From: Siphonobacter curvatus
GTDB lineage: Bacteria > Bacteroidota > Bacteroidia > Cytophagales > Spirosomataceae
Length of the DNA: 64,000 nt
NCBI RefSeq assembly: GCF_002943425.1
Contig: NZ_PTRA01000001.1
Coordinates: forward strand, 2,976,001 to 3,040,000
Direction of reading: 5' to 3'
Positions 14,942 through 62,133 of the stretch are shown here, piece by piece (position 1 is the stretch's first letter; each line of letters begins with the position of its first letter). The position numbers and the translations under genes are program-made. The notes under the pieces were generated by a model, which was given only the letters and a program-made list of their open reading frames with translations, was not told the DNA's origin and did no database searches.

Positions 14942-14978
14942 TGTCCGAAACTGTACATCGACCGTTCAGTTTCGGACA
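14942..14978. promoter_or_regulatory. Tandem dyad operator, site A
   Basis: Two 16-bp TGT-N10-ACA-type dyads, TGTCCGAAACTGTACA (14942-14957) and CGTTCAGTTTCGGACA (14963-14978), separated by 5 bp. Together they also form a larger inverted repeat. A box TGACTACCAG (14999-15008) follows 20 bp later. It is one of six equivalent sites at permease block heads and a likely binding site for a shared regulator. Confidence 0.8.
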
Positions 14979-15034
14979 TTTATTTTTTATTACTCTGCTG
15001 ACTACCAGTCCATTACTAATATCATTCTTTAACT

Positions 15035-15050
15035 GGCATACTTTTAAAAC
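15035..15050 (+). promoter_or_regulatory. GGCAYRRCTTT promoter element, site A
   Basis: GGCATACTTTTAAAAC preceded by CT. The GG lies 56 bp after the operator and 26 bp after the middle box, as at the other sites. It is 60 bp upstream of the ATG of the 98-residue gene. It resembles a sigma-54 -24 element, but no GC is seen at -12. Confidence 0.6.
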
Positions 15051-15094
15051 ACAGTCCTTTACCTGATCGTATAACTTCTTAACCAGCCGCACGT

Positions 15095-15391
15095 ATGTCT
15101 TATATTGCAATACCTCTGCCTTCGTTGCCCGGGAAACAGGAAATTGAAATTTCGGTAAGCATCAACGGTCAAAAACAGGACTTGCATTACCGGGTCGAGT
15201 TATTTCGCTGGGACGACTGCTCAACGCCCTCGTTCAACCGCGTGGAATGCCTGCGGGAAATGCTGACCACCTACGATCAGGAATGGTCCCTGTATTACAT
15301 CGGGGCTCCGACCGATGACTTTGTACCCATCACGTTCGTCAAAAAAGATGGTTTGACGAAGATGAGAACCGTGGAAATAATAGAGAGCTAA
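15095..15391 (+). CDS. Small protein of unknown function at the head of the P6 block
   Basis: 98 residues, not recognised. No signal peptide or TM helix is evident. The sequence looks like a small soluble beta-rich domain: ISVSINGQ, then HYRVELFRW, then WSLYYIGAP and VPITFVKK. Asp, Glu and aromatic residues are frequent, and two cysteines lie about 12 residues apart. It is the first gene after promoter site A and ends 64 bp before P6, so it is probably co-transcribed with that permease. It is the only permease block that starts with a non-permease gene. Real coding is supported by its codon pattern and by a start 60 bp downstream of the promoter element. Confidence 0.75.
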   Translation: MSYIAIPLPSLPGKQEIEISVSINGQKQDLHYRVELFRWDDCSTPSFNRVECLREMLTTYDQEWSLYYIGAPTDDFVPITFVKKDGLTKMRTVEIIES

Positions 15392-15455
15392 GGCTCCTTC
15401 TGTACACTTGAAGACCCCATAAGACGCGATTTTCGTGTCACTACCGATTACACGT

Positions 15456-17846
15456 ATGCTACGAAACTACTTTAAAATCGCTTTTCGAAGTCTGCTCAAA
15501 AACCGCCTGTTCACGTTTGTGAACTTGGCGGGACTATCCGTAGGCATTGTGGCCTGTTTGCTGATCAGCCTGTACGTGCTGCACGAACTGAGTTACGATA
15601 CCTTCCACGAAAAAGGCGATCGGATTTATCGTGTGGTTACGGACATTAAAACCCCCACGGAAACGATTCATCCAGACATTACGTCCGGCCCAATGGCTCC
15701 GGCTCTGAAACAAAATTTTCCCGAAGTAGAGGCCTATACGCGGCTCTGGGCACGCACGGCGGTATTTGCTCGTGATGACCAGAAGTTTCAGGAAAACCGG
15801 ATCTACATGGCCGATTCCACGCTGTTCGAGGTATTTTCGTTTCCCTTGCTACAAGGGGATGCCCGCACGGCTTTGAAGGCTCCGTTTAGTGCCGTACTCA
15901 CACAGAAAACCGCGAAAAAATACTTTGGGGACGAAAATCCAATGGGACAGACCTTGCGGATGGAAGGCAAGTTTCCGGTGAAAGTAACGGGTGTACTGAA
16001 GGACATTCCCGAAACCAGCCATATTCCCTTTGATATGCTGCTTTCGATGTCTACCCTAACGCGGGAATTACAGCCCAACGTGGACCAGCAGTGGAGCAAC
16101 TTTGCCTTTTATTCGTATCTCTTACTGAAGAAAAATACGAATGCTCAAGGCCTGGAAGCTAAAATTCCGGCTCTCCTTGACCGACTGGTGGGTAAAGAAC
16201 TCGCCCAGTTTCAGATGCACTACACGCTTCGTTTGCAGCCCCTACAGGACATTTATCTGAAGTCCGATCGCGGTGCACCTGAGCAGGGAAGCCTCAAAAA
16301 CGTGTACATCTTTTCGGTCATTGCGGCCTTTATTCTGCTGCTGGCCTGTATCAATTTCATCAACCTGACGATTGCCCGGGCTAGTGAACGAGCCAAGGAA
16401 GTGGGCGTACGAAAAGTCGTGGGAGCCGAGCGGCAACAGCTTACCTTCCAGTTTCTGAGCGAATACGTACTGCTTAGTTCGCTGGCTTTTATCATAGCCG
16501 TATTACTGAGTGAATTACTCCTACCCTTGTTCAATGAGTTTTCCGGCAAGACCATTCTCACCTCTACCCTCACCCACCCAACCTTCTGGCTTATTCTGCT
16601 GCTGCTGGCCGTTATTGTTGGACTGCTGGCGGGTCTGTATCCAGCTTTGGTGCTGTCGGGAATGAAGGCGATTACGGTGCTGAAGGGCCGCTTTGCGACC
16701 AGCCGTCAGGGACTGATCCTTCGGAAATCACTCGTCGTCTTTCAATTTGTGATTTCAGTAAGCCTGATTGTGAGTACGTTGGTGGTGTATACGCAGCTCA
16801 ACTACATGCGTGGCCAGTCGCTGGGCTTTGCTAAGGATCAGATGCTGGTGCTCAACCTCAACGATCCGGGTTACCTGGATCGGCACAGCGAGTCATTGCT
16901 ACGACAATTAGGAAACGTTGCCGGAGTTGAATCCGTAACTCAATCCTCGTCCGTACCCGGCAGCGGAGCCCAGGGAGCCTACACCAGTCTCGAAAATAAG
17001 TCAGGCGATATGCAGGCTGCGAATATGGACCTTTATTCCATCGATTATAACTTCCTAAAGCAGTATCAAATTCCTTTACTGGCCGGGCGGTTGTTCGCCC
17101 GCGATTACGCCACGGATTCCACGGAAGCTTTGATCGTGAATGAAGCTACCGTTAAGAACTTCGGCTACGCTTCGCCCTCGCAGATCATCGGTAAGAAATT
17201 TGACCAGTGGGGACGCAAAGGACGCATCATCGGCGTGGTGAAGAATTTCCATTCGGCGTCTTTACGGGAGGCCATTACGGCGGCTACCTTCCGCATCAAT
17301 CCCCACGAATGCCAGCAGGTTTCCATCAAAGTAAAGGCCGCTCAACTGCCCAGCACCCTTTCGGCTCTGAAGACCGTCTGGGAGCGGGCAGTACCGGATC
17401 GTCCCTTCGATTATTTCTTTATCGATCAGTCGTTCAATGATAAATACAAAGGCGAAGAACAGTTTGGCCGCTTATTCATCTACTTTGCCAGCATTGCCAT
17501 TTTCATTGCCTGCCTGGGTCTAATTGGCCTTACTTCGTACGCTACCTTCCAACGAACCAAGGAAATAGGCGTACGCAAAGTACTGGGGGCCAGCTCCTTC
17601 CAGATTACGGCCCTGCTTTCGCGGGAATTCATCAAGCTGGTACTGATCGCCATTCTGATTGCCAGTCCACTCGCCTGGTACGCCATGAATCGCTGGCTCG
17701 AAGATTTCCATTACCGGGCGGCACTCCCCTGGTGGACCTTCCCAACGGCGGGCATACTGGCCCTGGGCATTGCGATTCTGACGGTCAGTTCACTGACGCT
17801 GAAAGCCGCCACGGCGAATCCGGTGAAGAGTTTGAAAACGGAGTAA
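15456..17846 (+). CDS. P6: two-module FtsX/MacB-like ABC permease
   Basis: 796 residues from the ATG that begins MLRNYFKIAF, the start shared by all paralogues; a GTG seven codons upstream is less likely. Group III. Module 1 reads INFINLTIARASERAKEVG followed by VRKVVGAERQQL. In module 2 the usual AEQ before RTKEIG is replaced by TFQ, and LSREF replaces LSKDF. Domain 2 contains IIGVVKNFHS. The tail is NPVKSLKTE (Thr instead of Ser, as in P7). It follows the 98-residue gene by 64 bp and is closed by a strong terminator, so the block is a two-gene operon. Confidence 0.94.
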   Translation: MLRNYFKIAFRSLLKNRLFTFVNLAGLSVGIVACLLISLYVLHELSYDTFHEKGDRIYRVVTDIKTPTETIHPDITSGPMAPALKQNFPEVEAYTRLWARTAVFARDDQKFQENRIYMADSTLFEVFSFPLLQGDARTALKAPFSAVLTQKTAKKYFGDENPMGQTLRMEGKFPVKVTGVLKDIPETSHIPFDMLLSMSTLTRELQPNVDQQWSNFAFYSYLLLKKNTNAQGLEAKIPALLDRLVGKELAQFQMHYTLRLQPLQDIYLKSDRGAPEQGSLKNVYIFSVIAAFILLLACINFINLTIARASERAKEVGVRKVVGAERQQLTFQFLSEYVLLSSLAFIIAVLLSELLLPLFNEFSGKTILTSTLTHPTFWLILLLLAVIVGLLAGLYPALVLSGMKAITVLKGRFATSRQGLILRKSLVVFQFVISVSLIVSTLVVYTQLNYMRGQSLGFAKDQMLVLNLNDPGYLDRHSESLLRQLGNVAGVESVTQSSSVPGSGAQGAYTSLENKSGDMQAANMDLYSIDYNFLKQYQIPLLAGRLFARDYATDSTEALIVNEATVKNFGYASPSQIIGKKFDQWGRKGRIIGVVKNFHSASLREAITAATFRINPHECQQVSIKVKAAQLPSTLSALKTVWERAVPDRPFDYFFIDQSFNDKYKGEEQFGRLFIYFASIAIFIACLGLIGLTSYATFQRTKEIGVRKVLGASSFQITALLSREFIKLVLIAILIASPLAWYAMNRWLEDFHYRAALPWWTFPTAGILALGIAILTVSSLTLKAATANPVKSLKTE

Positions 17847-17876
17847 TGGATTGGTTTGGTGAAGTCAACTATAGGG

Positions 17877-17915
17877 AACGGAGTCCGTAGCAGATGCTAC
17901 GGACTCCGTTGTTTT
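17877..17915 (+). terminator. Rho-independent terminator after P6
   Basis: Sixteen-bp perfect stem (17877-17892 with 17895-17910; core CGGAGTCCGTAGCA), minimal loop, then GTTTT. It insulates the P6 block from the Crp/Fnr gene. Confidence 0.88.
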
Positions 17916-17938
17916 AAGCGGAAAAAACGGATTTCGCT

Positions 17939-17946
17939 TACCTTCG
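17939..17946 (+). promoter_or_regulatory. Possible -7 box of the Crp/Fnr gene
   Basis: TACCTTCG, one mismatch from the Bacteroidota TAnnTTTG box, 24 bp before the ATG and right after a terminator, where a new promoter is needed. No clear -33 box was seen. Confidence 0.4.
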
Positions 17947-17970
17947 CATCATAGCTTTACCCCACTGCCT

Positions 17971-18543
17971 ATGCACCCTCACTTCATCCAGCACATTCGA
18001 AAATACGTGGAGCTTACGGAAGAAGAAGTTCAGCGACTGTTGGCGTACCTGAAACCCATTTCCGTACCGAAAAAAGCTTATCTCCTGGAAGAGGGGCAGA
18101 TCTGCCGGGCTAATTATTTTGTCGAAAAAGGCTGTCTGCGGCTCTTTTACCTTACCGAAAAAGGTACGGAACAGATTACGCAGTTTGCCCTCGAAAACTG
18201 GTGGCTGGCCGATTATATGAGTTACGCCACCCAGCAACCCTCGGAATTTTACATTCAGGCCCTGGAGCCTACTGAGGTTTTCGCCATTCCGGCCGACTTT
18301 CAGAACCAGTTGTACCACGAATTTCCTCAGCTCGAACGGTATTTCCGACTCATGTTTCAGCGGGCTTTGGCCGCCTCACAACGCCGCCTCAAGTTTTTGC
18401 ACGATTATTCCAAGGAAGAAAGTTATCGCAACTTCGTAGCCCATTTCCCCGGTTTTACGCAGCGTATTCCACAGTACATGCTGGCCTCGTACTTAGGTTT
18501 AACGCCGGAGTACCTGAGTGAACTCCGAAAAAAACTGGTTTGA
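17971..18543 (+). CDS. Crp/Fnr-family transcriptional regulator
   Basis: 190 residues. An N-terminal cyclic-nucleotide-binding beta-barrel (about 20-115, including KKAYLLEEGQICRANYFVEKG and CLRLFYL) leads through a long dimer helix to a C-terminal winged-HTH, of which SYLGLTPEYLSELRKKL is the recognition part. The protein stops soon after that helix, normal for the short Bacteroidota members. No Fnr-type cysteine cluster is visible, so the effector is unknown. The AhpD-like gene follows 79 bp downstream on the same strand, a common pairing for this subfamily and a likely target (inference). Confidence 0.9.
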   Translation: MHPHFIQHIRKYVELTEEEVQRLLAYLKPISVPKKAYLLEEGQICRANYFVEKGCLRLFYLTEKGTEQITQFALENWWLADYMSYATQQPSEFYIQALEPTEVFAIPADFQNQLYHEFPQLERYFRLMFQRALAASQRRLKFLHDYSKEESYRNFVAHFPGFTQRIPQYMLASYLGLTPEYLSELRKKLV

Positions 18544-18588
18544 TTTGCTTTCTTAAACCAGCTTAAGTTTTAGCGAAAACGGACCCGC

Positions 18589-18596
18589 TAGGTTTG
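18589..18596 (+). promoter_or_regulatory. Bacteroidota-type promoter -7 box for the AhpD-like gene
   Basis: TAGGTTTG is a perfect match to TAnnTTTG, 26 bp before the ATG. A TTTT-containing stretch lies about 17 bp upstream as a possible -33 region. Confidence 0.6.
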
Positions 18597-18622
18597 CAGT
18601 GTACTTAAAAACACCACAAACC

Positions 18623-19060: not shown

Positions 19061-19085
19061 TGATTAGTTCCCTTTTCTGCTTTTC

Positions 19086-20071: not shown

Positions 20072-20124
20072 GCAGCTGGGTCTGAATCAAGCCGCTTTCT
20101 CTGACGTCTCATCTCTCTTTTTTC

Positions 20125-20706: not shown

Positions 20707-20770
20707 ATCACCTTTGTTACCCCGCAACGCTGACCGCTAGCCGATTACAGGCCTTTTGATCGATAAACCT

Positions 20771-22309
20771 ATGAAACGCTTTCTCTACCTCGGGGTGGCT
20801 CTGCTGACCCTGGGTTCCCTGCGAGCCCAACAGCCGAATCGACCTAACGTCATTTTCATTTTCTCAGACGACCACGCCTACCAGGCCATTAGTGCCTACG
20901 GTAGTAAACTCGCCCAAACGCCCAACATTGACCGGATCGCTAACGAAGGTGCCCTGTTACTCAACAATGTAGTCACCAATTCCATTTGCGGACCGAGCCG
21001 GGCTACCTTACTCACGGGCAAGTACAGTCACCTGAACGGGTACAAGCTCAACGAACGGAAGTTCAACATCAACCAGCCCGTCTTTCCCGAAGAATTGCAG
21101 AAAAACGGCTATCAGACGGCCTGGATTGGAAAAATGCACCTGGGCAGTCTGCCCCACGGGTTCGATTATCTGGATGTACTACCCGGCCAGGGGCATTATT
21201 ACAGTCCGGACTTCGTGAACGGGAAGAAAGATACCGTGCGGCATGAAGGCAAGTACGTGAGCAATGTCATTACCGAGCTTTCGCTTGACTGGCTCAATAA
21301 ACGGGATGCCTCTAAGCCCTTTTTTCTGGTTGTGGGACACAAGGCCACGCACCGCGAATGGCTGCCCGACATTCAGGATTTAGGAGCGTATGACGACGTG
21401 AACTTCCCCCTTCCCGCTTCGTTTTATGATGCCTACGAAGGTCGGGAAGCCGCCGAAAAACAGGATATGACCATCGACCAAACGATGCGTTTGAAGGAAG
21501 ACCTGAAAGTTCACCTGAACTACGACGCGAAGAACCGATTCAACGGCTACAACCGCTTTTCACCCGAGCAGAAAAAAGCTTTTTACGACTACTACGAAAA
21601 CAAAATCAGTAAGGAATTTGACGAGAAGAAACTGACGGGTAAAGCCTTAGTGGAATGGAAATACCAGCGGTATTTAAAAGATTACCTCGCTACGGCAAAA
21701 TCTTTGGACCGCAACATTGGCCGATTACTGGACTACCTGGATCAAAAGGGGCTGGCTAAAAATACCGTCGTGATTTATGCGTCCGATCAGGGTTTCTATA
21801 TGGGTGAACACGGCTGGTTTGACAAACGATTCATCTACGAAGAATCCCTGAAAACGCCCTTCGTGATTCGGTACCCGGGCGTCATCCAAGCGGGTAAAAA
21901 AGTACCGCAGCTGGTGTCGAATATCGACTGGGCTCCTACCCTGCTTGAGCTGACGGGTACGAAGGTTCCTCAAGATATTCAGGGAAAATCCTTTCTGCCC
22001 CTGCTGAAAAACGAAAAACCAGCCTGGCGGACGGCGGCGTATTACCACTACTACGAATTTCCGGAACCGCACCACGTGTACCCGCACTTTGGCGTGCGTA
22101 CGGAGCGTTATACGCTGGTGCACTTTTACGGGGACATCAATACCTGGGAACTGTATGATTTACAGAAAGATCCTCAGCAATTAAAAAACCTGTATGGTCA
22201 GAAAGGTACCGAGAAAATCACCGCTGATCTAAAAGCCCAACTGAAAGAGCTGATGGTTACGTACAAAGACGACGAAGCCCTGGGCCTGCTGCAACAAACC
22301 AATCCGTAA
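20771..22309 (+). CDS. Secreted sulfatase (type I, formylglycine-dependent)
   Basis: 512 residues from the ATG in front of a clear signal peptide (MKRFLYLGVALLTLGSLRAQ, cleavage near residue 20). Asp33/Asp34 in FSDDH bind the metal. The active-site motif is CGPSR at Cys73, to be converted to formylglycine. SDQG (338-341) and the following MGEHGW complete the metal/substrate region. The HGWFDKR-YEESLKTP pattern resembles heparan/glucosamine-sulfate sulfatases, but the substrate is inferred only to subgroup level. The next gene encodes a formylglycine-generating enzyme that would activate it. An in-frame TTG five codons upstream was not preferred. Confidence 0.95.
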   Translation: MKRFLYLGVALLTLGSLRAQQPNRPNVIFIFSDDHAYQAISAYGSKLAQTPNIDRIANEGALLLNNVVTNSICGPSRATLLTGKYSHLNGYKLNERKFNINQPVFPEELQKNGYQTAWIGKMHLGSLPHGFDYLDVLPGQGHYYSPDFVNGKKDTVRHEGKYVSNVITELSLDWLNKRDASKPFFLVVGHKATHREWLPDIQDLGAYDDVNFPLPASFYDAYEGREAAEKQDMTIDQTMRLKEDLKVHLNYDAKNRFNGYNRFSPEQKKAFYDYYENKISKEFDEKKLTGKALVEWKYQRYLKDYLATAKSLDRNIGRLLDYLDQKGLAKNTVVIYASDQGFYMGEHGWFDKRFIYEESLKTPFVIRYPGVIQAGKKVPQLVSNIDWAPTLLELTGTKVPQDIQGKSFLPLLKNEKPAWRTAAYYHYYEFPEPHHVYPHFGVRTERYTLVHFYGDINTWELYDLQKDPQQLKNLYGQKGTEKITADLKAQLKELMVTYKDDEALGLLQQTNP

Positions 22310-22317
22310 CGAACCGG

Positions 22318-22360
22318 AAGCCCCGCTGACAAGGTATCTTCGCGGGGCTTTCTGATTTTT
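22318..22360 (+). terminator. Terminator after the sulfatase gene
   Basis: Nine-bp GC-rich stem AAGCCCCGC with GCGGGGCTT, 15-nt loop, followed by TCTGATTTTT. It lies only 10 bp before the next start, so the FGE gene may rely on read-through or its own promoter. Confidence 0.75.
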
Positions 22361-22369
22361 AGCTTTCGA

Positions 22370-23413
22370 ATGAAGACATTACTCCTTTGGGCATGGACTG
22401 GGCTCTTGTTTTCCTGCCAGGAAAAAGCGAAAACGCAGTCCGACATTGCGGTTTGTAAAGTGCCGACACGGGCGGTGACTCTAGCAGGTCAAACGACGAG
22501 TGCTCCATCAGCGGCTGCGGATACGAAGGACATGGTACGGATTCCGGGGGGCGATTTCCAGATGGGCTCCAATGACTTTGAGGACACGCGACCGGTACAC
22601 CCCGTGCATGTCAATCCCTTTCTGATGGATACGCACGAGGTTACCAATGCCGAATTTGCGGCCTTCGTGAAAGCCACCCAGTACAAAACCATTGCCGAGC
22701 GTCCACTCAATCCTGCGGATTATCCGGGTGTTCCGGCGGACAAGCTCGTTCCGGGTTCGGCCGTATTTACACCACCAGCCCAGCCCGTTCCGCTTGAAAA
22801 CCCCTTAGCGTGGTGGGAGTACGTAGCCGGTGCCAACTGGCAGCATCCGAAAGGTCCGCATTCAAAAGCCGTACCCAACGAACCCGTCGTCCATATCGCC
22901 TACGAAGATGCCCTTGCCTACGCTCAGTGGGCGGGTAAACGCCTGCCCACCGAAGCGGAGTGGGAATTTGCCGCTCGCGGCGGACAAACGCAGGCATTGC
23001 CTTACTACTGGGGTTCAGAACTCAAACCCGGCGGTCGCTGGGTGGCTAATATTCACCAGGGACACTTCCCTGATCACAATACGAAAGAAGATGGCTTTGC
23101 GGACGTAGCTCCGGTACGCTCGTACCCGGCCAATGCCTACGGCCTGTACGATATGGATGGGAATGTCTGGGAATGGTGCTCGGATTATTACCGGCCGGAT
23201 TACTACGCATCGAGTCCGAAAGACAACCCGAAAGGTCCCAACGACAGCTACGACCCGCAGGAACCGGGGGCGGTCAAACGCGTGCAACGCGGCGGTTCAT
23301 TTCTGTGCAGCGATCAGTACTGCATTCGTTACAGAACGGGCAGTCGGGGTAAGGGCGAAGTGACCAGCGGCAGTAATAACCTGGGTTTTCGCTGCGTAAA
23401 GGATGTTCGCTAA
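22370..23413 (+). CDS. Formylglycine-generating enzyme (SUMF1 family), probable lipoprotein
   Basis: 347 residues. The N-terminus has a hydrophobic stretch ending LLFSC, a plausible lipobox with Cys16. The FGE-sulfatase domain spans about 54-346: MVRIPGGDFQMGS, then RPVHPVHVNPF, MDTHEVTNAEF, GKRLPTEAEWEFAARGG, DMDGNVWEWCSDYY. The catalytic pair Cys313/Cys318 is present in RGGSFLCSDQYCIRYR, matching the copper-binding CxxxxC of oxygen-dependent FGEs, so this is likely an active enzyme rather than a structural homologue. It lies directly after a CGPSR sulfatase, its obvious substrate. Its predicted location outside the cytoplasm would mean modification after export. Confidence 0.93.
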   Translation: MKTLLLWAWTGLLFSCQEKAKTQSDIAVCKVPTRAVTLAGQTTSAPSAAADTKDMVRIPGGDFQMGSNDFEDTRPVHPVHVNPFLMDTHEVTNAEFAAFVKATQYKTIAERPLNPADYPGVPADKLVPGSAVFTPPAQPVPLENPLAWWEYVAGANWQHPKGPHSKAVPNEPVVHIAYEDALAYAQWAGKRLPTEAEWEFAARGGQTQALPYYWGSELKPGGRWVANIHQGHFPDHNTKEDGFADVAPVRSYPANAYGLYDMDGNVWEWCSDYYRPDYYASSPKDNPKGPNDSYDPQEPGAVKRVQRGGSFLCSDQYCIRYRTGSRGKGEVTSGSNNLGFRCVKDVR

Positions 23414-24383: not shown

Positions 24384-24436
24384 AAAGTAAATGTCCGCAA
24401 ACGAACAAGCACTGTTCATTTGCGGACATTTACTTT
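24384..24436. promoter_or_regulatory. Tandem dyad operator, site B, with extended hairpin
   Basis: Dyads TGTCCGCAAACGAACA (24392-24407) and TGTTCATTTGCGGACA (24413-24428), 5 bp apart. The symmetry extends to 24-bp arms (24384-24407 with 24413-24436, one mismatch), so the transcript could fold into a strong hairpin after the glycosyltransferase gene and may also terminate it. The box TGATTATCAG is at 24448-24457. Confidence 0.8.
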
Positions 24437-24483
24437 ACATAATAATCTGATTATCAGAATTATTTAAATTATATATTCCGAAT

Positions 24484-24499
24484 GGCATAGCTTTCTACA
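24484..24499 (+). promoter_or_regulatory. GGCAYRRCTTT promoter element, site B
   Basis: GGCATAGCTTTCTACA preceded by AT; 55 bp after the operator, 26 bp after the middle box and 48 bp before the P7 ATG. Confidence 0.62.
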
Positions 24500-24531
24500 A
24501 AGCACTTTTGCTCCTTTCATCTCGTCTGCCT

Positions 24532-26919
24532 ATGCTTCGTAATTACTTGAAAATCGCCGTTCGTAACCTCTTCAAAAATCCGGGGTACAGCTTCATCAAT
24601 ATCATGGGACTGGCCGTAGGGATGGCCGCCAGCATGCTCATCATGCTCTGGATTCTGGATGAATTTAGTTACGATACGTTTCACACGAAGAAAGACCGGC
24701 TTTACCGGGTTATGCGAAACTTCAAGGAGTCCGAAACCAATACCTGGACTTCGTCTTCGCAGGGGGGCTTACTGGGTGATTACCTCCGCAAGAACATTCC
24801 GGAGATGAAAAACGTCACGATGACTGGCTGGGAATCGCCGATGGCACTGGCGTACCAGGACAAGGTGATGAAGAAAACCACGATGACGGTGGAGCCGGAT
24901 TTTTTCCGCATGTTTTCCTTCGAACCCGTTAAAGGTTCACTCCAGACGGCCTTCAAAAATCCTAATTCTATTGTCTTAACGGAATCAACGGCCAAAGCTC
25001 TTTTTGGCGACGAAGATCCAATTAATAAAGTAATTCGCTACTACGGTCAGGTGGACCTGAAAGTCACCGCCGTACTGAAAGATTACCCGAAAAACTCACG
25101 ATTTGGTTTCGAGGCCTTAATCCCCGTAAAACTCTACGATGCTCTGGGCTGGAATTCCTACGGCTGGAGTAACAACAACTTTCAGCTTTACGTCGAGCTG
25201 GATCCAAATGCGAATGAGGAGGCGGTAAATGCGAAGATTCGAAATATCTATACACAACAGGATAAAGGCTCCAGCAACGGTGATATTTTTCTGCACGCCC
25301 TGACCCGTTCCCGCCTGCATAGCCGCTTCGAAAACGGCGTATCCGTGGGCGGTCGCATCGAAAACGTTCAGTTGTTTGGGATCATCGCCGGATTTGTACT
25401 ACTCATTGCCTGTATCAATTTCATGAACCTGAGTACGGCCCGTAGTGAAAAGCGGGCCCGCGAAGTAGGCATCCGCAAGACTTCTGGAGCCATGCGAAGC
25501 GGCCTGATCGGGCAGTTTCTGGGCGAATCGTTGTTGCTGGCACTCTTGGGATTTCTTCTGGCCATTGGTCTGGTGGAAGTAAGCCTTCCCTGGTTTAACG
25601 AGCTGGTTGAGAAACAATTATCCATTGACTTTTTGCACCCCTTGTACTGGCTGGCGGCTCTGTCGATCGTAGCTCTTACGGGTATTCTGGCGGGCAGTTA
25701 TCCGGCATTTTACCTGTCGTCCTTCAATCCAGTTACGGTACTCAAAGGCACCATGCAAACGGGCCGAGCGGCTTCGCTTCCTCGTAAGATACTAGTCATA
25801 CTACAATTTTCTTTCTCCATCGCTCTCATTATCAGTACTATTCTGGTATACCAGCAGATTCAGCACGCCAAAAACCAGCCCCTCGGCTACGATCAGGAAA
25901 ACCTGATGTACTTCGCCATGGAAGGCGATGCCCCTAATCACTGGCAGGCGTTACGTAGTGAAATCATGGCTACGGGACTGGCCGAAAACGCCTATGCTTC
26001 CAGTTCAGTACCCGCAGCGGAAGGCGGTTCCAACGGCTGGGGTTTCAACTGGCGGGGCCGCAAACCCGAGCAGTTCAACCAAGTTTTTGAGTTTATGCGA
26101 GTGAGTTATGATTTCGTTAAAACAGCGGGAATCCAGGTACTGGCGGGTCGCGATTTTTCACCGGCTTATCCGGGTGATACGTCCCGGGCCGTCATTTTGA
26201 ACGAATCGGCGGTAAAAGTACTGGGATTCAAAAATCCGCTGGGCGAAACCATCACCCGGGGCGAACCGAACGAACGCTACGCTGAAAAATATACGGTCGT
26301 GGGCGTCGTCAAAAATTTCGCGTACGGTTCGCCTTATGAAACGATGTCTCCCATGATGATCAATTTGTCGGTGAATGGCGGGAACATGGGTTATCTGGTC
26401 GTCCGTCTACGCGGGGCTAGTTCCAACAGTATCGAAAAAATCCAGAGCCTTTACCAGAAATACGCCCGCAACGTTCCCTTCGACTACCACTTCATTGATT
26501 CCGATTTCGAGAAACGCTTTCAGGCCGAACGCCTGCTGGGCAGCCTGGCTTTTGTCTTTGGTAGCCTGGCCGTTTTCATCTCCTGTCTGGGCCTATTCGG
26601 GCTGGCTTCGTTCATGGCTGAGCAGCGTCGTAAGGAAATTGGCGTACGCAAAGTACTGGGAGCCAGCGTACTGAACCTCTGGGGTTTACTTTCCAAAGAT
26701 TTCATCGTACTGGTCGGTTTATCCTTTCTCATTGCTTCACCCCTGGCGTACTACTTCATGAGCGACTGGCTCAACAAGTACGCTATCCGCATCGAGATTG
26801 GCTGGCTGGTCTTTGCGATTTCGGGTTGTATCGCGTTGGGTATCACACTGCTCACGGTTAGTTACCAGGCCATTCGGGCGGCTTCGGCCAATCCGGTTAA
26901 AAGTTTAAAAACCGAGTAA
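24532..26919 (+). CDS. P7: two-module FtsX/MacB-like ABC permease
   Basis: 795 residues from the ATG that begins MLRNYLKIAV, 48 bp after promoter element B; an in-frame upstream start would overlap the promoter. Group II: GGRIENVQLF before TM2, FNWRGRKPE in domain 2, and LPRKILVILQFSFS at TM5 (LPRK shared with P15 and P17). The module 1 segment REVGIRKTSGAMRSGL has Thr-Ser where most have Val-x; module 2 reads RRKEIGVRKVLGASVLNLW, and the LW ending is shared with P15 and P17. The tail is NPVKSLKTE. P8 starts 28 bp downstream, so they are co-transcribed. Confidence 0.94.
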   Translation: MLRNYLKIAVRNLFKNPGYSFINIMGLAVGMAASMLIMLWILDEFSYDTFHTKKDRLYRVMRNFKESETNTWTSSSQGGLLGDYLRKNIPEMKNVTMTGWESPMALAYQDKVMKKTTMTVEPDFFRMFSFEPVKGSLQTAFKNPNSIVLTESTAKALFGDEDPINKVIRYYGQVDLKVTAVLKDYPKNSRFGFEALIPVKLYDALGWNSYGWSNNNFQLYVELDPNANEEAVNAKIRNIYTQQDKGSSNGDIFLHALTRSRLHSRFENGVSVGGRIENVQLFGIIAGFVLLIACINFMNLSTARSEKRAREVGIRKTSGAMRSGLIGQFLGESLLLALLGFLLAIGLVEVSLPWFNELVEKQLSIDFLHPLYWLAALSIVALTGILAGSYPAFYLSSFNPVTVLKGTMQTGRAASLPRKILVILQFSFSIALIISTILVYQQIQHAKNQPLGYDQENLMYFAMEGDAPNHWQALRSEIMATGLAENAYASSSVPAAEGGSNGWGFNWRGRKPEQFNQVFEFMRVSYDFVKTAGIQVLAGRDFSPAYPGDTSRAVILNESAVKVLGFKNPLGETITRGEPNERYAEKYTVVGVVKNFAYGSPYETMSPMMINLSVNGGNMGYLVVRLRGASSNSIEKIQSLYQKYARNVPFDYHFIDSDFEKRFQAERLLGSLAFVFGSLAVFISCLGLFGLASFMAEQRRKEIGVRKVLGASVLNLWGLLSKDFIVLVGLSFLIASPLAYYFMSDWLNKYAIRIEIGWLVFAISGCIALGITLLTVSYQAIRAASANPVKSLKTE

Positions 26920-26947
26920 TCGCGTTTTACCTCAACTTCCTACTTCT

Positions 26948-29341
26948 ATGCTCCGTAACTACATCAAAATTGCCCTGCGAAACCTGCTGCGAAACAAAGG
27001 GTTCTCCATCATTAATATTCTGGGCCTGAGCATTGGGCTGGCCTGCTGTATGCTAATTATTCTGTACACCAAAGACGAGGTGAGTTTCGATGCCTTCCAG
27101 GCCCGTAAGGATCAGCTGTATCGGGTGACGTGTACCATTCAGGATATGAACGGGGAGAAGCAGAAGCTAGGAATTGCAGCCCTAACGCAGGGACCTTCGT
27201 TTAAAGAGGACATTCCGGAGGTACTGGAATTTTCGCGGGTACAGGATCGGAGTATGTTCGTGCGTTCGGGCAGTGAGGTTTTCACTGAAAAAGCCGTTTG
27301 GGCCGACAAAAACTTCTTTACGCTGTTCTCTTTTCCACTGGTCGCGGGAAACCCTAAAACGGTACTCTCGGATATTCATTCGCTGGTTTTGACGGAAGAA
27401 ATGGCCGAAAAATACTTCGGTACTACACAGGCTCTGGGCAAAAAGCTGGAATTCGAAATCAATAATAAGTTCGAAACTTTCGTCGTATCGGGCATCGCCA
27501 AAAATGCTCCGCAGAACTCGACCATTCAGTTTAAAATACTCTTGCCGTTTGTGTATCAAGAGATTCACGAAAAGGATGATAACTGGCTCTGGCTTTCGTT
27601 CCCAACCTACCTGCTATTGCATCCTTCGGCTGATATAGCCACGGTTGAGAAAAAGATGAATCAGGTCTACCTCACCCGTTCAAAGGAGCAACGGGCGGAG
27701 GCGAGCAAGCACGGCTTCAAGGACCATTTTAACTGGGGATTACAGCCGTTCCTGCAAATGCACCTGGCTACCGACATCCAGTATACGCCACAGGCTAGTA
27801 ATCCCATGTATTCGTACATTCTGCTGGGCATTGCTCTCTTTGTATTGCTAATTGCCTGCATCAATTTCGTGAATCTGACCGTGGCTCAATCCTTACGCCG
27901 AAGCCGGGAAATCGGTATTCGAAAAGTAGTAGGCGGTCAGCGAAGTCAGTTGATGGGGCAGTTCTTGGGTGAATCGTTCATTCTGTGTTTTCTAGCCTTT
28001 ACGCTGGCCATTTTGCTGGCCGAAGCGAGTCTGCCGTTCTTCAACGAACTAGCCAATAAGGAATTAAGTCTGACTTATCTGCTGGATTATCAGCTAGTTC
28101 TGGGCGTAGTGGTTTTATTTTTGGTTACGGGTTTTGCGGCAGGCTTCTATCCGGCTTTGGTTTTATCGGGCTTTGATCCGCTGCAAACGTTGTACAATCG
28201 CTTCCGGTTTTCGGGTAAAAACTATCTATCGAAGGGGCTGGTCGTCTTGCAGTTTTCACTGGCCACGTTCCTGATTATTACAACGCTGTTCATTTATGCC
28301 CAGTTTAATTACCTGACAAACAAGGACCTGGGTTACAATGAAAAGAACCTGCTGTCCGTTACGGTCGGCTGGAATAGGACGGATAGCCCTACCTCCACCC
28401 GGCAACAAACCTTTGAACATGAGTTAAGTCATGCCCCAGGCGTACAACAGGTAGCACCCGTCATGGATGGCTCCTGGACCACTACTGCAAAAGCCAATGG
28501 CGTGGAGCTGGATGTGAAGTACGAGCACGTCGACGAACACTTTTTACCGGCCATGCAGATACCGATGGTTGAGGGTCGAAATTTTTCCGCGGCTTACCCC
28601 GCCGATTCTACGCACTCGGTGCTCGTCAATGAAGCCTTTGTTCAGAAAGTGGGCTGGAAAGGTTCAGCCATCGGTAAAACCGTCGATTTTTTGAACGGCA
28701 ATGATACTAAACTGACGATTGTAGGCGTCGTGAAAGACTATCATTTCGCTTCGCTTAAAGCCAAAATTAGTCCGCAATTGTTCAGTTCGAATCCACACCT
28801 ACCCTTTGGGCGTTTTCTGATTCGGGTACAACCCGATAAACTTCCCCGGGCAATCCAGTCGATCGAGGCTACGTACCGGAAGCTAGTTCCGTACCGTCCT
28901 TTTTCGTATGATTTTATCGATGAGCTGAATTATAAGAATTACGAAGCCGAAGCTAAGTGGAAGCAGATTATCACGTTCGGAGCTATACTGACCATTTTTA
29001 TTTCCTGCATCGGCCTATTTGGTCTGGCCAGTTTATCCATGCAACAGCGGACCAAGGAAATCGGCATTCGGAAAGTACTCGGAGCTTCGGTGTTGCAACT
29101 TTCGAATCTGCTGGCCAAAAACTTCCTGACCCTGGTACTGATTGCTTTTGTGGTAGCCATTCCGGCGGCCTGGTACGTGACCCAACGCTGGCTGGAAAAC
29201 TTCGCGTATCGCATTGACATTACGTGGCAAACCTTCGCCCTAGCCGCCCTGCTGACGAGTGGTATTGCCCTGATCACGGTGAGTTTCAATACCATTCGTA
29301 CGGCTTTGGCTAATCCAATAAAATCTTTAAAATCAGAGTAA
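26948..29341 (+). CDS. P8: two-module FtsX/MacB-like ABC permease
   Basis: 797 residues, group III. Module 1 reads CINFVNLTVAQSLRRSREIG then IRKVVGGQRSQL, with Val-Ala-Gln in place of Thr-Ala-Arg. In module 2 the segment before the coupling helix is SMQQRTKEIGIRKVLGAS, followed by LLAKNF instead of LLSKDF. Domain 1 has NNKFETFVVSGIAKNAP, longer than in most copies. Domain 2 keeps IVGVVKDYHF. The tail is NPIKSLKSE. A secreted proline-rich protein gene begins 40 bp downstream and probably shares this transcript. Confidence 0.94.
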   Translation: MLRNYIKIALRNLLRNKGFSIINILGLSIGLACCMLIILYTKDEVSFDAFQARKDQLYRVTCTIQDMNGEKQKLGIAALTQGPSFKEDIPEVLEFSRVQDRSMFVRSGSEVFTEKAVWADKNFFTLFSFPLVAGNPKTVLSDIHSLVLTEEMAEKYFGTTQALGKKLEFEINNKFETFVVSGIAKNAPQNSTIQFKILLPFVYQEIHEKDDNWLWLSFPTYLLLHPSADIATVEKKMNQVYLTRSKEQRAEASKHGFKDHFNWGLQPFLQMHLATDIQYTPQASNPMYSYILLGIALFVLLIACINFVNLTVAQSLRRSREIGIRKVVGGQRSQLMGQFLGESFILCFLAFTLAILLAEASLPFFNELANKELSLTYLLDYQLVLGVVVLFLVTGFAAGFYPALVLSGFDPLQTLYNRFRFSGKNYLSKGLVVLQFSLATFLIITTLFIYAQFNYLTNKDLGYNEKNLLSVTVGWNRTDSPTSTRQQTFEHELSHAPGVQQVAPVMDGSWTTTAKANGVELDVKYEHVDEHFLPAMQIPMVEGRNFSAAYPADSTHSVLVNEAFVQKVGWKGSAIGKTVDFLNGNDTKLTIVGVVKDYHFASLKAKISPQLFSSNPHLPFGRFLIRVQPDKLPRAIQSIEATYRKLVPYRPFSYDFIDELNYKNYEAEAKWKQIITFGAILTIFISCIGLFGLASLSMQQRTKEIGIRKVLGASVLQLSNLLAKNFLTLVLIAFVVAIPAAWYVTQRWLENFAYRIDITWQTFALAALLTSGIALITVSFNTIRTALANPIKSLKSE

Positions 29342-29381
29342 ATCATTTATAAATGCTGTTTGACCTTTTACAAACACAGCC

Positions 29382-29957
29382 ATGCAAAAAGTTCTGATTC
29401 TGGCAGCTATGCTCTTTGGTGTACCTGCCTTAGCCCAGCAATCCATTCATTCATCGATTCATGACGATGGCAAGAAGTTACACATCGACATTCACGGGAC
29501 GGTGAATGGAAAAGCGTTTGATTTCGAGAATTCGTACGATGTGAGTCAAATGAGCAAAGAGGAGCGAAAAGAGCTGATCAATCAGGCGTATCGGTCCGTC
29601 GGCCTACAGCCCCCCAAGCCACCGACTCCGCCCTCCTCTCCGAGTGCACCGTCGGCTCCGAGTGCTCCTTCCTCACTAAATACGCCTCCTACGCCACCGA
29701 CTCCACCCAGTCCGGCCTTGACACCTGCTCCGCCTACACCCCCTAGCCCACCGACTCCCGCAGAATCCCAGTACCGGATTCCCAAAGATGCTTCCCTTAC
29801 CATTGATGAGACTGACGAAATGATGTCGGTTAAACTTGAACGTACGCATAACGGCAAGCGAAACGTGCTGCAAAAGTCCTATAACATCAAAGGCAAAAGC
29901 GAAGCTGAAAAGCGTGAACTAATCGAAGCCGCGACGCAGGAGTTTGAAAAACAATAA
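29382..29957 (+). CDS. Secreted proline-rich protein of unknown function
   Basis: 191 residues. The signal peptide MQKVLILAAMLFGVPALAQQ predicts export. The mature part has a short N-terminal domain (HSSIHDDGKKLHIDIHG, MSKEERKELINQAYRSVG), a low-complexity linker of PPTPPS/APSAPS repeats (about 72-127), and a C-terminal domain that echoes the first: MSVKLERTHNGKRNVLQKSY, then KGKSEAEKRELIEAAT. The two ends look like a duplicated small domain joined by a stiff spacer. It follows P8 by 40 bp and is closed by a terminator, so it may be a periplasmic accessory of the P7-P8 transporters (inference). No family recognised. Confidence 0.85.
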   Translation: MQKVLILAAMLFGVPALAQQSIHSSIHDDGKKLHIDIHGTVNGKAFDFENSYDVSQMSKEERKELINQAYRSVGLQPPKPPTPPSSPSAPSAPSAPSSLNTPPTPPTPPSPALTPAPPTPPSPPTPAESQYRIPKDASLTIDETDEMMSVKLERTHNGKRNVLQKSYNIKGKSEAEKRELIEAATQEFEKQ

Positions 29958-36463: not shown

Positions 36464-36500
36464 TGTCCGAAAGCGAACGATCTCTGTTCACTTTCGGACA
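36464..36500. promoter_or_regulatory. Tandem dyad operator, site C
   Basis: TGTCCGAAAGCGAACG (36464-36479) and TGTTCACTTTCGGACA (36485-36500), 5 bp apart. The middle box is TGATTTTCAA (36521-36530). The site lies 143 bp upstream of the divergent antiporter gene, so it could influence that gene too, but the rest of the module points to P9. Confidence 0.8.
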
Positions 36501-36556
36501 ATTTCATTTCCTACAACTATTGATTTTCAAAGACTTACCTTTTTACCTTGCGTAAC

Positions 36557-36572
36557 GGCACAACTTTAGATC
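36557..36572 (+). promoter_or_regulatory. GGCAYRRCTTT promoter element, site C
   Basis: GGCACAACTTTAGATC preceded by AC; 56 bp after the operator, 26 bp after the middle box and 44 bp before the P9 ATG. Confidence 0.63.
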
Positions 36573-44359: not shown

Positions 44360-44397
44360 TGTTCGGAAGCGTACAATGTGTCGTACGCTTCCGAACA
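44360..44397. promoter_or_regulatory. Tandem dyad operator, site D
   Basis: TGTTCGGAAGCGTACA (44360-44375) and CGTACGCTTCCGAACA (44382-44397), 6 bp apart; the pair also forms a perfect 15-bp inverted repeat. The middle box is TGATTACCAG (44418-44427). Confidence 0.8.
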
Positions 44398-44453
44398 CTT
44401 GTTTTTATATTAATTACTGATTACCAGCGCTTTAACACTCCCTTTCTTTCATC

Positions 44454-44469
44454 GGCACGACTTTTCTAA
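44454..44469 (+). promoter_or_regulatory. GGCAYRRCTTT promoter element, site D
   Basis: GGCACGACTTTTCTAA preceded by TC, the closest of the six to a sigma-54 -24 sequence. It lies 56 bp after the operator and 26 bp after the middle box. The P12 ATG is 130 bp downstream, giving the longest leader of the set. Confidence 0.63.
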
Positions 44470-49567: not shown

Positions 49568-49605
49568 TGTTCGTTTCCGAACTATGCTCTGTTCAAAAGC
49601 GAACA
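49568..49605. promoter_or_regulatory. Tandem dyad operator, site E
   Basis: TGTTCGTTTCCGAACT (49568-49583) and TGTTCAAAAGCGAACA (49590-49605), 6 bp apart. The large inverted repeat is poor here (12 of 15 pairs), but each 16-bp dyad is well kept, which shows that the unit under selection is the dyad and not the hairpin. The middle box is TCTATACCAG (49626-49635). Confidence 0.78.
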
Positions 49606-49661
49606 CCCCTACTATTGTATACCATTCTATACCAGACAGTTACCTAAAGACAGTATCCAAC

Positions 49662-49677
49662 GGCACAACTATTGAAA
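49662..49677 (+). promoter_or_regulatory. GGCAYRRCTTT promoter element, site E
   Basis: GGCACAACTATTGAAA preceded by AC; 56 bp after the operator, 26 bp after the middle box and 47 bp before the P14 ATG. The only one of the six with A at the tenth position. Confidence 0.62.
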
Positions 49678-59562: not shown

Positions 59563-59592
59563 TTGGCTATCCATTCCTAGAATAGGTATTCC

Positions 59593-59630
59593 TGTCCATT
59601 TACGAACAGTTGACTGTTCGTAAATGGACA
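59593..59630. promoter_or_regulatory. Tandem dyad operator, site F
   Basis: TGTCCATTTACGAACA (59593-59608) and TGTTCGTAAATGGACA (59615-59630), 6 bp apart, also a perfect 17-bp inverted repeat. The middle box is TAAAAATCAG (59651-59660), the weakest of the six. Confidence 0.78.
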
Positions 59631-59686
59631 TCTTTATTTATATAAATAACTAAAAATCAGACACTTATTCATTCACTAATCCCTAG

Positions 59687-59702
59687 GGCATGACTTTCTA
59701 GG
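59687..59702 (+). promoter_or_regulatory. GGCAYRRCTTT promoter element, site F
   Basis: GGCATGACTTTCTAGG preceded by AG; 56 bp after the operator, 26 bp after the middle box and 47 bp before the P18 ATG. Confidence 0.62.
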
Positions 59703-59733
59703 TACTGTTTCAATACCCTTAATCCCAGAACCT

Positions 59734-62133
59734 ATGCTTAAGAACTATTTGCAAATAGCTCTGCGTAACCTCCGACGAAATCCCTTGTACAGTCTGCTTA
59801 ATATCGGCGGACTCGCCGCTGGGCTGGCTGTCAGTATTCTGATTCTGCTGTACGTCGTTCATGAATACAGTTACGACACGTTTCATCAGAACGGTGATCG
59901 GATTTTCCAGACAATGGACCGGATGCCTCACGGCGAGACACACATTCAGACTCAGTCGTTGTCGGTGCAACTGGGACCGCGTACGCAGGCGGCCCGACCG
60001 GATCTGGTGGAAGCAACGGTTCGTACGCGGTCTTCCATGCGAACAGTGCTGAAAACGGCCACTAACTTTCATTCTTTCGAGGATCAGCTTCTCTTTGCCG
60101 ACCCTTCTTTTCTGACCGTCTTTACATATCCTCTGCAAAAAGGAAACGCGGCCACCGCCTTGACCCGGCCCAATACGATTGTGCTTTCCCCGGAATTAGC
60201 CCAGAAATACTTTGGAGCGGCTAATCCACTGGGTAAAACGCTGGTTTACGACAACAAACTACCGCTGGAAGTAACCGGCGTATTAGAAAGCCTGCCTTCG
60301 CACAGTACGCTTTCCTTCTCCGCACTCATTTCCTTTGCTACCCAGAAAAATCTGGTTGCTTACGACGAGGGCTTAGGCAAGCAACTGGAATACAGTCACG
60401 TCGGCGGCGGAGCTTTTCAGACGTATTTCCTGCTGACGAAAGCCGAACACCGAACCAAAGTAGAACGACTGATTCGTCAATTGCACCTGAAGGATCATCC
60501 CGTTAAAAAAGGTGAAAAAACGGAGGAGTTCATTTTAGAACCCTTCACCGATCTTCATCTGCACGGCATCATGGTGGATCATTCGCAGCAGTACCACGGT
60601 TTGTTCACGGGCATTGCCCTGGGTATTTTACTGCTGGCCCTGATCAACTACATGAACCTGACCACGGCCCGGGCTACCCAGCGGGCCAAAGAAGTCGGTG
60701 TGCGGAAAGTACTCGGTGGCTTACGCAGCAATCTGGCCGCCCAGTTTTATACTGAATCCGTACTGATCACCCTGATTTCGTTTGCCCTGAGTTTGTTACT
60801 GGTCGAAGCCTTACGTCCTTTCTTCTTTCAGTGGCTGGATCTTCACATCAGCGATACGTTTTTGAAAGATCCCCTTTTCATCGGTTTACTAGCGGGTCTA
60901 CTCCTGCTATGTACGTTGGTAGCGGGCAGCTATCCGGCCCTGCTACTCTCCCAGTTTACGCCAGCCGAAGTACTAAAAGGGCGTTTTTCAAAAGCAAATG
61001 GGATCAATATTCGCCGCGTCCTGACCATTTTTCAGTTTTCTGTTTCCATCGGTTTGATTGTATGTAGTTTCATTGTCAAGAACCAACTTGACTTTCTCCG
61101 TACCCAGAACATTGGTTTGGATCGCGAGGGAATTGTCGTGATCACCGTTCCCCAAACGATGATTCCTCATTACGCCGCATTCAAGCAGGAACTTCGTCAA
61201 CAAGCGGGCATTCAGAACGTAGCGGCGGCGAGCTGGCCCCTCTTCAAAGGCGGCGTGAATATGTTCTTTACGCAGTCGCCCATTACTAAAAAAGACATTT
61301 CTTTACAAATTACGGCCGTGGACAATTCCTTTTTCCAGACCATGAATGTCCCCTGGAAAATCAAGCCCACCCGCCCCTACTCTTCCAATCCTCCCTCATT
61401 GATTTTGAATGAATCGGCTTTAAAGGATTTTGGATTTACGGAAAGACCCATTGGCGAAAAAATTCAGTTGGGCACCCAGGCTGCCGAAGTGGTGGGCGTC
61501 GTGAAAGATTTCAATCTTTTTTCCAGCAAGCACCCACAGAGCGGACTGGGCATCTCCGTAGTAGCCGATACGACGCGAGAACTGATGACCTACGGCGGCT
61601 GCCTGTACCTGAAGCTGGCCGCTGGCGGCAACGTAACCGCCCGACTGGCCGCCGTGGAATCGGTGTTCAAAAAATACGAGACGGAGTACCCCTTCGAGTA
61701 CTACTTCCTCGACGAAGCCTACGACGCTCTGTACAAAGCCGAAAGCAAGCTGGGCACGATGCTAACGGCCTTCACCAGTCTGGCCATTCTGATTGCCTGC
61801 CTCGGACTCTTCGGACTGGCTACGTTTGCCGTGGAAACCCGCCGTAAGGAAATTGGCATCCGTAAAGTCCTGGGGGCTAGTTTATCCAGTATTACACTAC
61901 TCTTGTCGAAAGAATTCTTGAAGCTGGTACTGATTGCCAATGCCATCGCTTTTCCGATAGCCTGGTATTTCATGCAGGACTGGCTGAAAGCCTACGCCAT
62001 CCGGATTCAGATGGGCTGGGTAGCCTTTGCTCTGGCGGGTTTTATCGCTTTGGTGATTGCGTTTGTCACCGTAAGCACCCAGGCCATCCGGGCGGCGAAT
62101 GCCGATCCGGTGAAGAGTTTGAAAAGTGAGTAA
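59734..62133 (+). CDS. P18: two-module FtsX/MacB-like ABC permease
   Basis: 799 residues, the most divergent complete copy. TM2 ends LALINYMNLTTARATQRAKEVG and continues VRKVLGGLRSNLAAQFYTES; the usual Ala-Cys-Ile-Asn is Leu-Ile-Asn. Module 2 has VETRRKEIGIRKVLGASLSS then LSKEF, with Val-Glu-Thr where others have Ala-Glu-Gln. Domain 2 is less like the family at the LLAGRNF position (it reads VPWKIKPTRPYSS), so the second periplasmic domain may have changed role. The tail is DPVKSLKSE, with Asp for Asn, closer to the D-P form common in MacB proteins. It heads the last block; P19 follows after 48 bp. Confidence 0.93.
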   Translation: MLKNYLQIALRNLRRNPLYSLLNIGGLAAGLAVSILILLYVVHEYSYDTFHQNGDRIFQTMDRMPHGETHIQTQSLSVQLGPRTQAARPDLVEATVRTRSSMRTVLKTATNFHSFEDQLLFADPSFLTVFTYPLQKGNAATALTRPNTIVLSPELAQKYFGAANPLGKTLVYDNKLPLEVTGVLESLPSHSTLSFSALISFATQKNLVAYDEGLGKQLEYSHVGGGAFQTYFLLTKAEHRTKVERLIRQLHLKDHPVKKGEKTEEFILEPFTDLHLHGIMVDHSQQYHGLFTGIALGILLLALINYMNLTTARATQRAKEVGVRKVLGGLRSNLAAQFYTESVLITLISFALSLLLVEALRPFFFQWLDLHISDTFLKDPLFIGLLAGLLLLCTLVAGSYPALLLSQFTPAEVLKGRFSKANGINIRRVLTIFQFSVSIGLIVCSFIVKNQLDFLRTQNIGLDREGIVVITVPQTMIPHYAAFKQELRQQAGIQNVAAASWPLFKGGVNMFFTQSPITKKDISLQITAVDNSFFQTMNVPWKIKPTRPYSSNPPSLILNESALKDFGFTERPIGEKIQLGTQAAEVVGVVKDFNLFSSKHPQSGLGISVVADTTRELMTYGGCLYLKLAAGGNVTARLAAVESVFKKYETEYPFEYYFLDEAYDALYKAESKLGTMLTAFTSLAILIACLGLFGLATFAVETRRKEIGIRKVLGASLSSITLLLSKEFLKLVLIANAIAFPIAWYFMQDWLKAYAIRIQMGWVAFALAGFIALVIAFVTVSTQAIRAANADPVKSLKSE

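Follow-up and report, generated by a model that had tools for sequence, protein, structure and literature searches.

The 64,000-nucleotide stretch of the Siphonobacter curvatus genome studied here (assembly GCF_002943425.1, contig NZ_PTRA01000001.1, positions 2,976,001 to 3,040,000; below, the window) carries six copies, A to F, of a three-part DNA module, placed at the heads of units that encode exporter permeases. We suggest that each module represents an enhancer-dependent sigma-54 promoter: two tandem dyads would form the upstream activating sequence (UAS), the box that follows them would be a site for a protein of the integration host factor (IHF) type, the GGCAY motif would be the -24 element, and the activator would be the product of a neighbouring gene. 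We put the probability of this reading at roughly 0.87. It rests on what can be read from the DNA: the elements and the distances between them, the regulator genes nearby, the link with exporter units throughout the genome, and the conservation across genera and phyla.

Structure and distribution of the modules

The six modules had been noticed in the letters of the window alone (below, the sequence-only reading), and they exist as described there: a fixed-spacing consensus scan for tandem dyads plus TGGCAY recovered exactly these six, against one match in total in 100 dinucleotide shuffles. Single dyads (TGTYCG-N4-CGAACA, up to two mismatches) are found 40 times in the window, whereas 100 shuffles gave 10.3 on average and never more than 20; among the six modules, A has the weakest ones. 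The distance from the dyad end to GG is indeed 56 bp in A, C, D, E and F and 55 bp in B, the gap from the box end to GG is 26 bp in all six, and the spacer sequences between the elements are not conserved among modules. Two small corrections apply. An exact fit to GGCAYRRCTTT fails in A (GGCATACTTTT) and E (GGCACAACTAT), and the TGATTAYCAG-like box is weak as a palindrome in E (7/11), though it scores 8/9 there as WATCAR-N4-TTR.

For wider searches we used R1, a profile of modules A to F together with G and H, which flank the window. As the sequence-only reading had stated, no module lies within the blocks: R1 found no other full-length one in the window. Apart from a single 9-bit match, what remained were partial matches on the reverse strand to palindromes of the known modules. 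In the genome scans, 150 first-look candidates were scored per genome (here 150 of 921). In this 6.39-Mb genome, 11 full-length matches were found among the candidates scored, eight of them training sites, which enlarges the set of six by the two flanking modules and three located elsewhere. Nine of the 11 modules lie within 84 kb, from H to G.

The module is placed non-randomly relative to permease genes: 10 of the 11 matches head ADOP or exporter units. The eleventh (C4:105 kb) precedes a gene whose secreted product matches DUF3244 below the threshold. Only two ADOP-size genes had no training module, and immediately before each of them stands one of the three modules outside the training set. 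On the basis of strand, gaps and modules, the 21 ADOP-size genes were divided by hand into nine units, every one of which starts with a module; by contrast, none of the seven single-length MacB permeases has an R1 match nearby in the genome scan. The likely regulon proposed from the window is supported by these data; that proposal had left its parts unnamed, and the regulator is encoded outside the window. Besides permeases, the regulon includes ATPases, HlyD and TolC proteins and a gene for a sigma factor of the extracytoplasmic function (ECF) group, and in other genera Toastrack proteins.

Regulatory genes

Divergently from module H, a gene encodes P0001, a 464-residue response regulator with receiver, Sigma54_activat and HTH_8 (Fis-type helix-turn-helix) domains; an APH-like gene and then a histidine kinase gene follow it downstream. 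P0001 is one of the seven strong Sigma54_activat genes of the genome, and none of the other six bacterial enhancer-binding proteins has an R1 match within the 2.7-3.5 kb examined around its gene. Its closest named locus is from Siphonobacter sp. BAB-5405 (99% identical). Linkage suggests that the dyads are bound by this neighbouring activator.

Two rpoN copies, 53% identical, were found in the genome (L017:7704-9179 and L018:8088-9560). One is located by a class II tRNA synthetase gene, and the other by another activator gene and kinase genes. One gene of the IHF/HU type was detected (PF00216; PF18291 matches the same place).

The ECF sigma gene (L015:15588-16130) lies between module H and the HlyD gene. 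Its homologue occupies this place in four of 80 homologous loci, all of Siphonobacter (L019-L022), and a sigma cascade is possible.

Conservation in other genomes

Two sets of sequences extend the analysis. The first comprises the surroundings of homologous activators at 80 loci; the dyads plus TGGCAY recur in 51 of them, compared with 3/80 in a reversed-sequence control. Their record titles include Bacteroidota, Ignavibacteria, Aminicenantes, Zixibacteria, Latescibacteria and an Acidobacteria metagenome-assembled genome. In 48/80 loci the gene divergent from the activator is an HlyD homologue, and in 13 more it is an ADOP or ATPase homologue; a kinase homologue follows the activator in 68/80, several of the loci being cut by contig ends.

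The second set is derived from R1 scans, which gave a match in 15 of 19 genomes, this one included; the four without it belong to other families of the order. It consists of 79 regions, namely 77 near full-length matches hand-picked from 18 relatives and two from this genome, and some shorter or edge matches in G009-G011 and G016 were left out. Eleven regions that missed a filter (score 32, -24 match 5 of 6) were dropped before the box was counted (L220, L238, L247, L250, L251, L253, L254, L255, L257, L258 and L260); three of these, L253, L254 and L258, seem to be false positives. The remaining 68 and A-H make up 76 sites. R1 was trained on boxed sites and its matches favour the box, while a count over the 51 loci repeats the analysis free of that bias. 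The two sets overlap, as the Siphonobacter genomes G001-G004 and some of the activator loci seem to come from identical records.

The genes following all 79 regions, including those dropped later, were classed by BLAST against the proteins of this genome. In Siphonobacter (n = 40) these are ADOP (27), ECF (five), ATPase (four) and none (four), and in other genera (n = 39) ADOP (22), HlyD (five), ATPase (two) and none (10). Six of the 14 unclassed genes were scanned: three encode DUF4097/DUF2807 (Toastrack) proteins over the cut-off, and three gave DUF3244 matches below it; the other unclassed genes include an activator gene (L247) and, at L222 and L248, genes unrelated to export. Toastrack proteins have been tied to membrane stress (PMC11237479).

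The elements as parts of a proposed sigma-54 promoter

GG is present in all 76 sites, as the scan requires, and the base after it is C in 46/47 Siphonobacter and 24/29 other Cytophagales sites. The -24/-12 region of module H is near-canonical (TTTGGCACACCTTTGGCAT), and it was this sequence that allowed the sigma-54 nature of the whole set to be recognised. At sigma-54 promoters the start is expected about 25 nt after GG, inside the 10-30 bp range anticipated by the sequence-only reading; in unit B the first ATG lies 48 nt after GG.

The box resembles the E. coli IHF consensus, WATCAR-N4-TTR (PMC3897727). When A-H are all read at one fixed offset, 63 of their 72 positions agree with this consensus, a count that drops to 45 at the next best offset and that none of 20000 spacer shuffles attains at the fixed one. 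Single sites range from 6/9 to 9/9. Judged spacer by spacer, the IHF 13-mer is rarely significant in AT-rich DNA; the evidence lies in the fixed position over many sites. A box of at least 9/11 occurs in 64/76 sites (shuffled mean 7.3, maximum 16). In 59 of these 64 it stands 13-15 or 25-26 bp from GG, five sites with other distances being left out (L209, L218, L236, L243 and L252), and TTR, which was not used in the choice of sites, is found at exactly N4 in 43 of the 59, compared with 12 or fewer at any other tested offset.

The spacing falls into a few classes. In 32 of the 59 sites, from Siphonobacter, the dyad-box distance is 18-19 bp and the box-GG distance 25-26 bp; in 19 sites of other genera these are 27-30 and 13-15 bp; seven sites combine 29-31 with 25-26, and one has 41 and 15. 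In the 51 loci chosen without the box, the dyad-GG distance is 51-56 bp in 38, 66-68 bp in 11, and 44 or 61 bp in two. The common differences between genera approximate one helical turn, which fits an arrangement in which three proteins have to face each other.

Counter-evidence and alternative explanations

Several observations weigh against the proposed reading. The -12 TTGC is missing in 46/47 Siphonobacter sites, including all six of the window, and in 29/29 sites of other Cytophagales. Among loci whose sites were chosen without regard to -12 or the box, it is present in 12/18 outside Bacteroidota, which speaks for the reading, and in 0/33 within (membership was taken from record titles, and L032, L040 and L042, counted as outside, are titled only "bacterium"). 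For the canonical TGGCAY-N5-TTGCW, a count over the genome showed no enrichment (six versus 17 in the control), and hence it does not define the sigma-54 promoters here; GGCAYRRCTTT alone is even depleted (32 versus 83 in the control), which leaves only the whole module as informative. The activator loop reads GAFTDA instead of GAFTGA. The DNA-bending protein is not clearly IHF, its best match being IHF-beta at 63.8 bits versus a curated cut-off of 120. The box is poor in module H (6/9 as an IHF site) and reaches 9/11 or more in only 19 of the 51 loci chosen without it; in 13 of these 19 it is located 14, 15 or 25 bp from GG and in six at other distances. Finally, in two relatives the first long open reading frame (ORF) after the module (L222 and L248) is 515-680 bp downstream and does not encode an exporter.

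GAFTDA or GSFTDA occurs in 77/80 homologous activator loci (three have no match to the search pattern), and GAFTDA is among the variants that would keep activity (PMC4641369). The idea that GAFTDA covaries with the lost -12 was rejected, as distant GAFTDA loci keep TTGC. We infer that sigma-54 is used in spite of the weak -12.

The alternative that deserves most attention concerns the box, which might be a palindromic site (TGATWATCA) of a separate transcription factor. The TGAT half is common 5' of WATCA (T 59, G 46, A 55 and T 47 of 59), although these counts are inflated by the choice of sites by palindrome match. The asymmetric TTR at exactly N4, independent of that choice, speaks for the IHF type, as does the better IHF fit in module E. 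In eight orthologous module pairs of two close Siphonobacter genomes, identity in YTGAT is 85%, which does not exceed that of the spacers (83-85%), while WATCAR reaches 92% and TTR 100%. Furthermore, IHF sites are known between activator and sigma-54 sites, where altering them reduced promoter activity 10-12 fold (PMC3897727), and the order UAS-IHF-promoter is a textbook architecture (PMC7057263). For these reasons we consider a separate palindrome-binding factor unlikely.

Much less probable is that GGCAYRRCTTT represents the -35 of the ECF sigma factor, with the dyads binding a classical activator. The position of the ECF gene at the head of the first unit and the missing canonical -12 at most Siphonobacter sites agree with it, but no conserved -10 is visible by eye downstream in a MAFFT alignment of eight sites, the ECF homologue is lineage-specific (4/80 loci, compared with 51/80 for the module), and many distant modules do have the canonical TTGC at -12 (12/18). 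Lower still is the probability that the dyads are repressor operators of promoters read by a housekeeping sigma factor: tandem palindromes alone do not tell an activator from a repressor, but in 49/51 loci a conserved -24 follows the dyads at a distance of 51-56 or 66-68 bp, and their divergent neighbour is a sigma-54 activator gene in a layout kept across phyla. The least credible explanation is recent copying of one promoter or repeat element. The likeness of the modules and the grouping of nine of the 11 within 84 kb agree with it; the unconserved spacers between modules speak against it, as do the orthologous Siphonobacter pairs, in which the half-sites (97%), WATCAR, TTR and -24 (100%) are kept at 92-100% and the spacers at 83-85%. 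The suggestion of the sequence-only reading that spacing and boxes are under selection rather than recently copied gains modest support from these eight pairs, tempered by the dyad inner N4 (98%) and the region downstream (93%), which are also highly identical.

Proposed mechanism and relation to known systems

According to the enhancer-dependent sigma-54 reading, the histidine kinase encoded two genes on from P0001 would sense an envelope or export-related signal, and phosphorylated P0001, an activator of the NtrC type, would bind the two 16-bp dyads (TGTYCG-N4-CGRACA). The IHF/HU-type protein would bend the DNA at the box, allowing the AAA+ ring of the activator to reach RNA polymerase, which holds RpoN at the GGCAY (-24) element. 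Upon activation, about 21 dispersed ADOP-type permeases would be made together with TolC, ATPases and an adaptor common to them, and in Siphonobacter the ECF sigma factor as well. The ATPases would presumably be shared among permeases, and the regulon may represent an envelope-stress or peptide-export response.

A broader scenario, which we hold to be doubtful, is that in Cytophagales the sigma-54 holoenzyme gave up the -12 GC at these promoters, specificity passing to the -24 and a rigid, helically phased enhancer-IHF scaffold served by GAFTDA activators and perhaps one of the two RpoN paralogues; the enhancer code, which recurs across phyla, would have been multiplied, binding an expanded set of orphan permeases to a few shared ATPases.

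The architecture as such is already known; no published account of this activator, enhancer or exporter regulon was found in the literature searched, which covered few subscription papers. The orp operons of Desulfovibrio vulgaris (PMC3897727, as far as the part drawn on here describes them) share the order of activator palindromes, IHF site and -24/-12 as well as divergent operons. Here, in contrast, there is a many-unit exporter regulon, the dyads are mostly 51-56 or 66-68 bp from the -24, and the -12 is degenerate in Bacteroidota. A position-specific scoring matrix survey (PMC12316311) predicted COG0577-type FtsX-like ABC permeases under sigma-54, including in the class Bacteroidia; in the part of it used here, it rests on the sigma-54 promoter consensus, weak at -12 in our case, and assigns no activator, enhancer sequence or IHF site. 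In Flavobacterium psychrophilum, mutagenesis of a promoter has confirmed a -24/-12 motif of the sigma-54 type (PMC9723704).

P0001 resembles the NtrC/AtoC/ZraR-type activators in its receiver, AAA+ Sigma54_activat and Fis-type domains; it differs from them in the GAFTDA motif, in its linkage to HlyD-ATPase-permease genes, and in that its best NCBIfam matches (TIGR02915, AtoC and ZraR) are all below the curated cut-offs among the 25 families listed. The exporters resemble MacAB-TolC/ADOP (TIGR03434) systems in having MacB_PCD and FtsX repeated twice in each of the scanned proteins of about 800 residues, and HlyD, ATPase and TolC in the regulon. The six scanned permeases reach 243-340 bits against the TIGR03434 cut-off of 622, and we therefore name them "ADOP-type" only.

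With this reading, a permease family of mostly unknown function can be assigned a regulator and an enhancer sequence, together with a list of targets. Since the activator-exporter layout recurs in several phyla, a signal found in one genome could inform many. The natural series of one-turn spacing differences offers a ready test of how strict DNA phasing is in sigma-54 activation, and, given their weak -12, promoters of this kind would probably escape searches with standard sigma-54 matrices.

Gene units and further observations

The modules, units and activator gene are collected in Table 1. The promoter and ECF gene of the P1-P5 unit are located just left of the window.

Table 1. Features of the module set. 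Positions refer to the window unless preceded by a locus (L) or C number.
Feature	Position	Strand	Remark
Activator P0001	L015:13722-15116		Divergent from module H; begins ~0.9 kb left of window
Module H	L015:15398-15501		Heads ECF sigma gene, then HlyD-ATPase-P1..P5 unit
Unit H: HlyD adaptor, ABC ATPase, permeases P1-P5	230..14871	+	Domain scans; P2-P5 by ORF size and PF12704 matches
Module A, tandem dyads (UAS)	14942..14978	+
Module A, IHF-type site	15003..15015	+	TACCAG-N4-TTA (8/9)
Module A, -24/-12 region	15035..15048	+	GGCATACTTTTAAA; -12 degenerate
Unit A: 98-residue gene, ADOP-type permease P6	15095..17846	+
Module B, tandem dyads (UAS)	24392..24428	+
Module B, IHF-type site	24452..24464	+	TATCAG-N4-ATT (7/9; as palindrome 11/11)
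Module B, -24/-12 region	24484..24497	+
Unit B: P7, P8, 191-residue gene	24508..29957	+	P8 by ORF size and PF12704 matches
Module C, tandem dyads (UAS)	36464..36500	+
Module C, IHF-type site	36525..36537	+	TTTCAA-N4-TTA (8/9)
Module C, -24/-12 region	36557..36570	+
Unit C: permeases P9, P10, P11	36601..44334	+
Module D, tandem dyads (UAS)	44360..44397	+
Module D, IHF-type site	44422..44434	+	TACCAG-N4-TTA (8/9)
Module D, -24/-12 region	44454..44467	+
Unit D: permeases P12, P13	44584..49485	+
Module E, tandem dyads (UAS)	49568..49605	+
Module E, IHF-type site	49630..49642	+	TACCAG-N4-TTA (8/9)
Module E, -24/-12 region	49662..49675	+
Unit E: permeases P14-P17	49709..59562	+
Module F, tandem dyads (UAS)	59593..59630	+
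Module F, IHF-type site	59655..59667	+	AATCAG-N4-TTA (9/9)
Module F, -24/-12 region	59687..59700	+
Unit F: permeases P18, P19	59734..64000	+	P19 continues past window end
Module G	L017:2853		Heads ABC ATPase and TolC-type protein
Further module	C5:270 kb		Upstream of ADOP gene
Further module	C1:3055 kb		Upstream of ADOP gene
Further module	C4:105 kb		Before secreted protein

In unit C, the R1 scan of the window found no module in the 417-bp gap between P9 and P10, and P10-P11 could therefore have another promoter. The 191-residue gene of unit B has no Pfam match. The 98-residue gene of unit A (15095-15391) has no Pfam or NCBIfam match; its homologues are found by tblastn beside ATPase/ADOP genes in the distant loci L036, L043, L045, L059 and L085, and it is possibly an unnamed accessory protein.

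In nine loci (L065, L070, L073, L078, L080, L086 (Pontibacter), L036, L038 and L061), TGGCAY occurs on both sides of one dyad pair at similar spacing. Such pairs probably act as a two-way enhancer that also drives the activator gene.

In two of the further modules, L260 (C4:105865-105970, - strand) and L108 (C1:3055249), half-sites of the TGTGCG and the TGTYCG type stand together in the dyads, a possible basis for cross-talk between two activators. A second HlyD-OEP-ATPase-MacB-MacB operon (L261:2070-10988; G000:C4:145-154 kb) has its own GAFTDA activator and kinase, and upstream of it a dyad of the TGTGCG/CGCACA type followed by the element GGCACGCTTGTGGCAT was seen by eye; this operon is a putative paralogous system with a shifted enhancer code. 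At L117 (G000:C2:282677-282740), R1 found GGCATGACTTTC (19.7 bits, E 0.004) with the box-like TTGATTTTGAG upstream. This site, which lacks dyads, may be a further sigma-54 promoter served by some other activator. Between the permease units, positions 20756-23413 encode a sulfatase adjoining the gene of its FGE-type activating enzyme.

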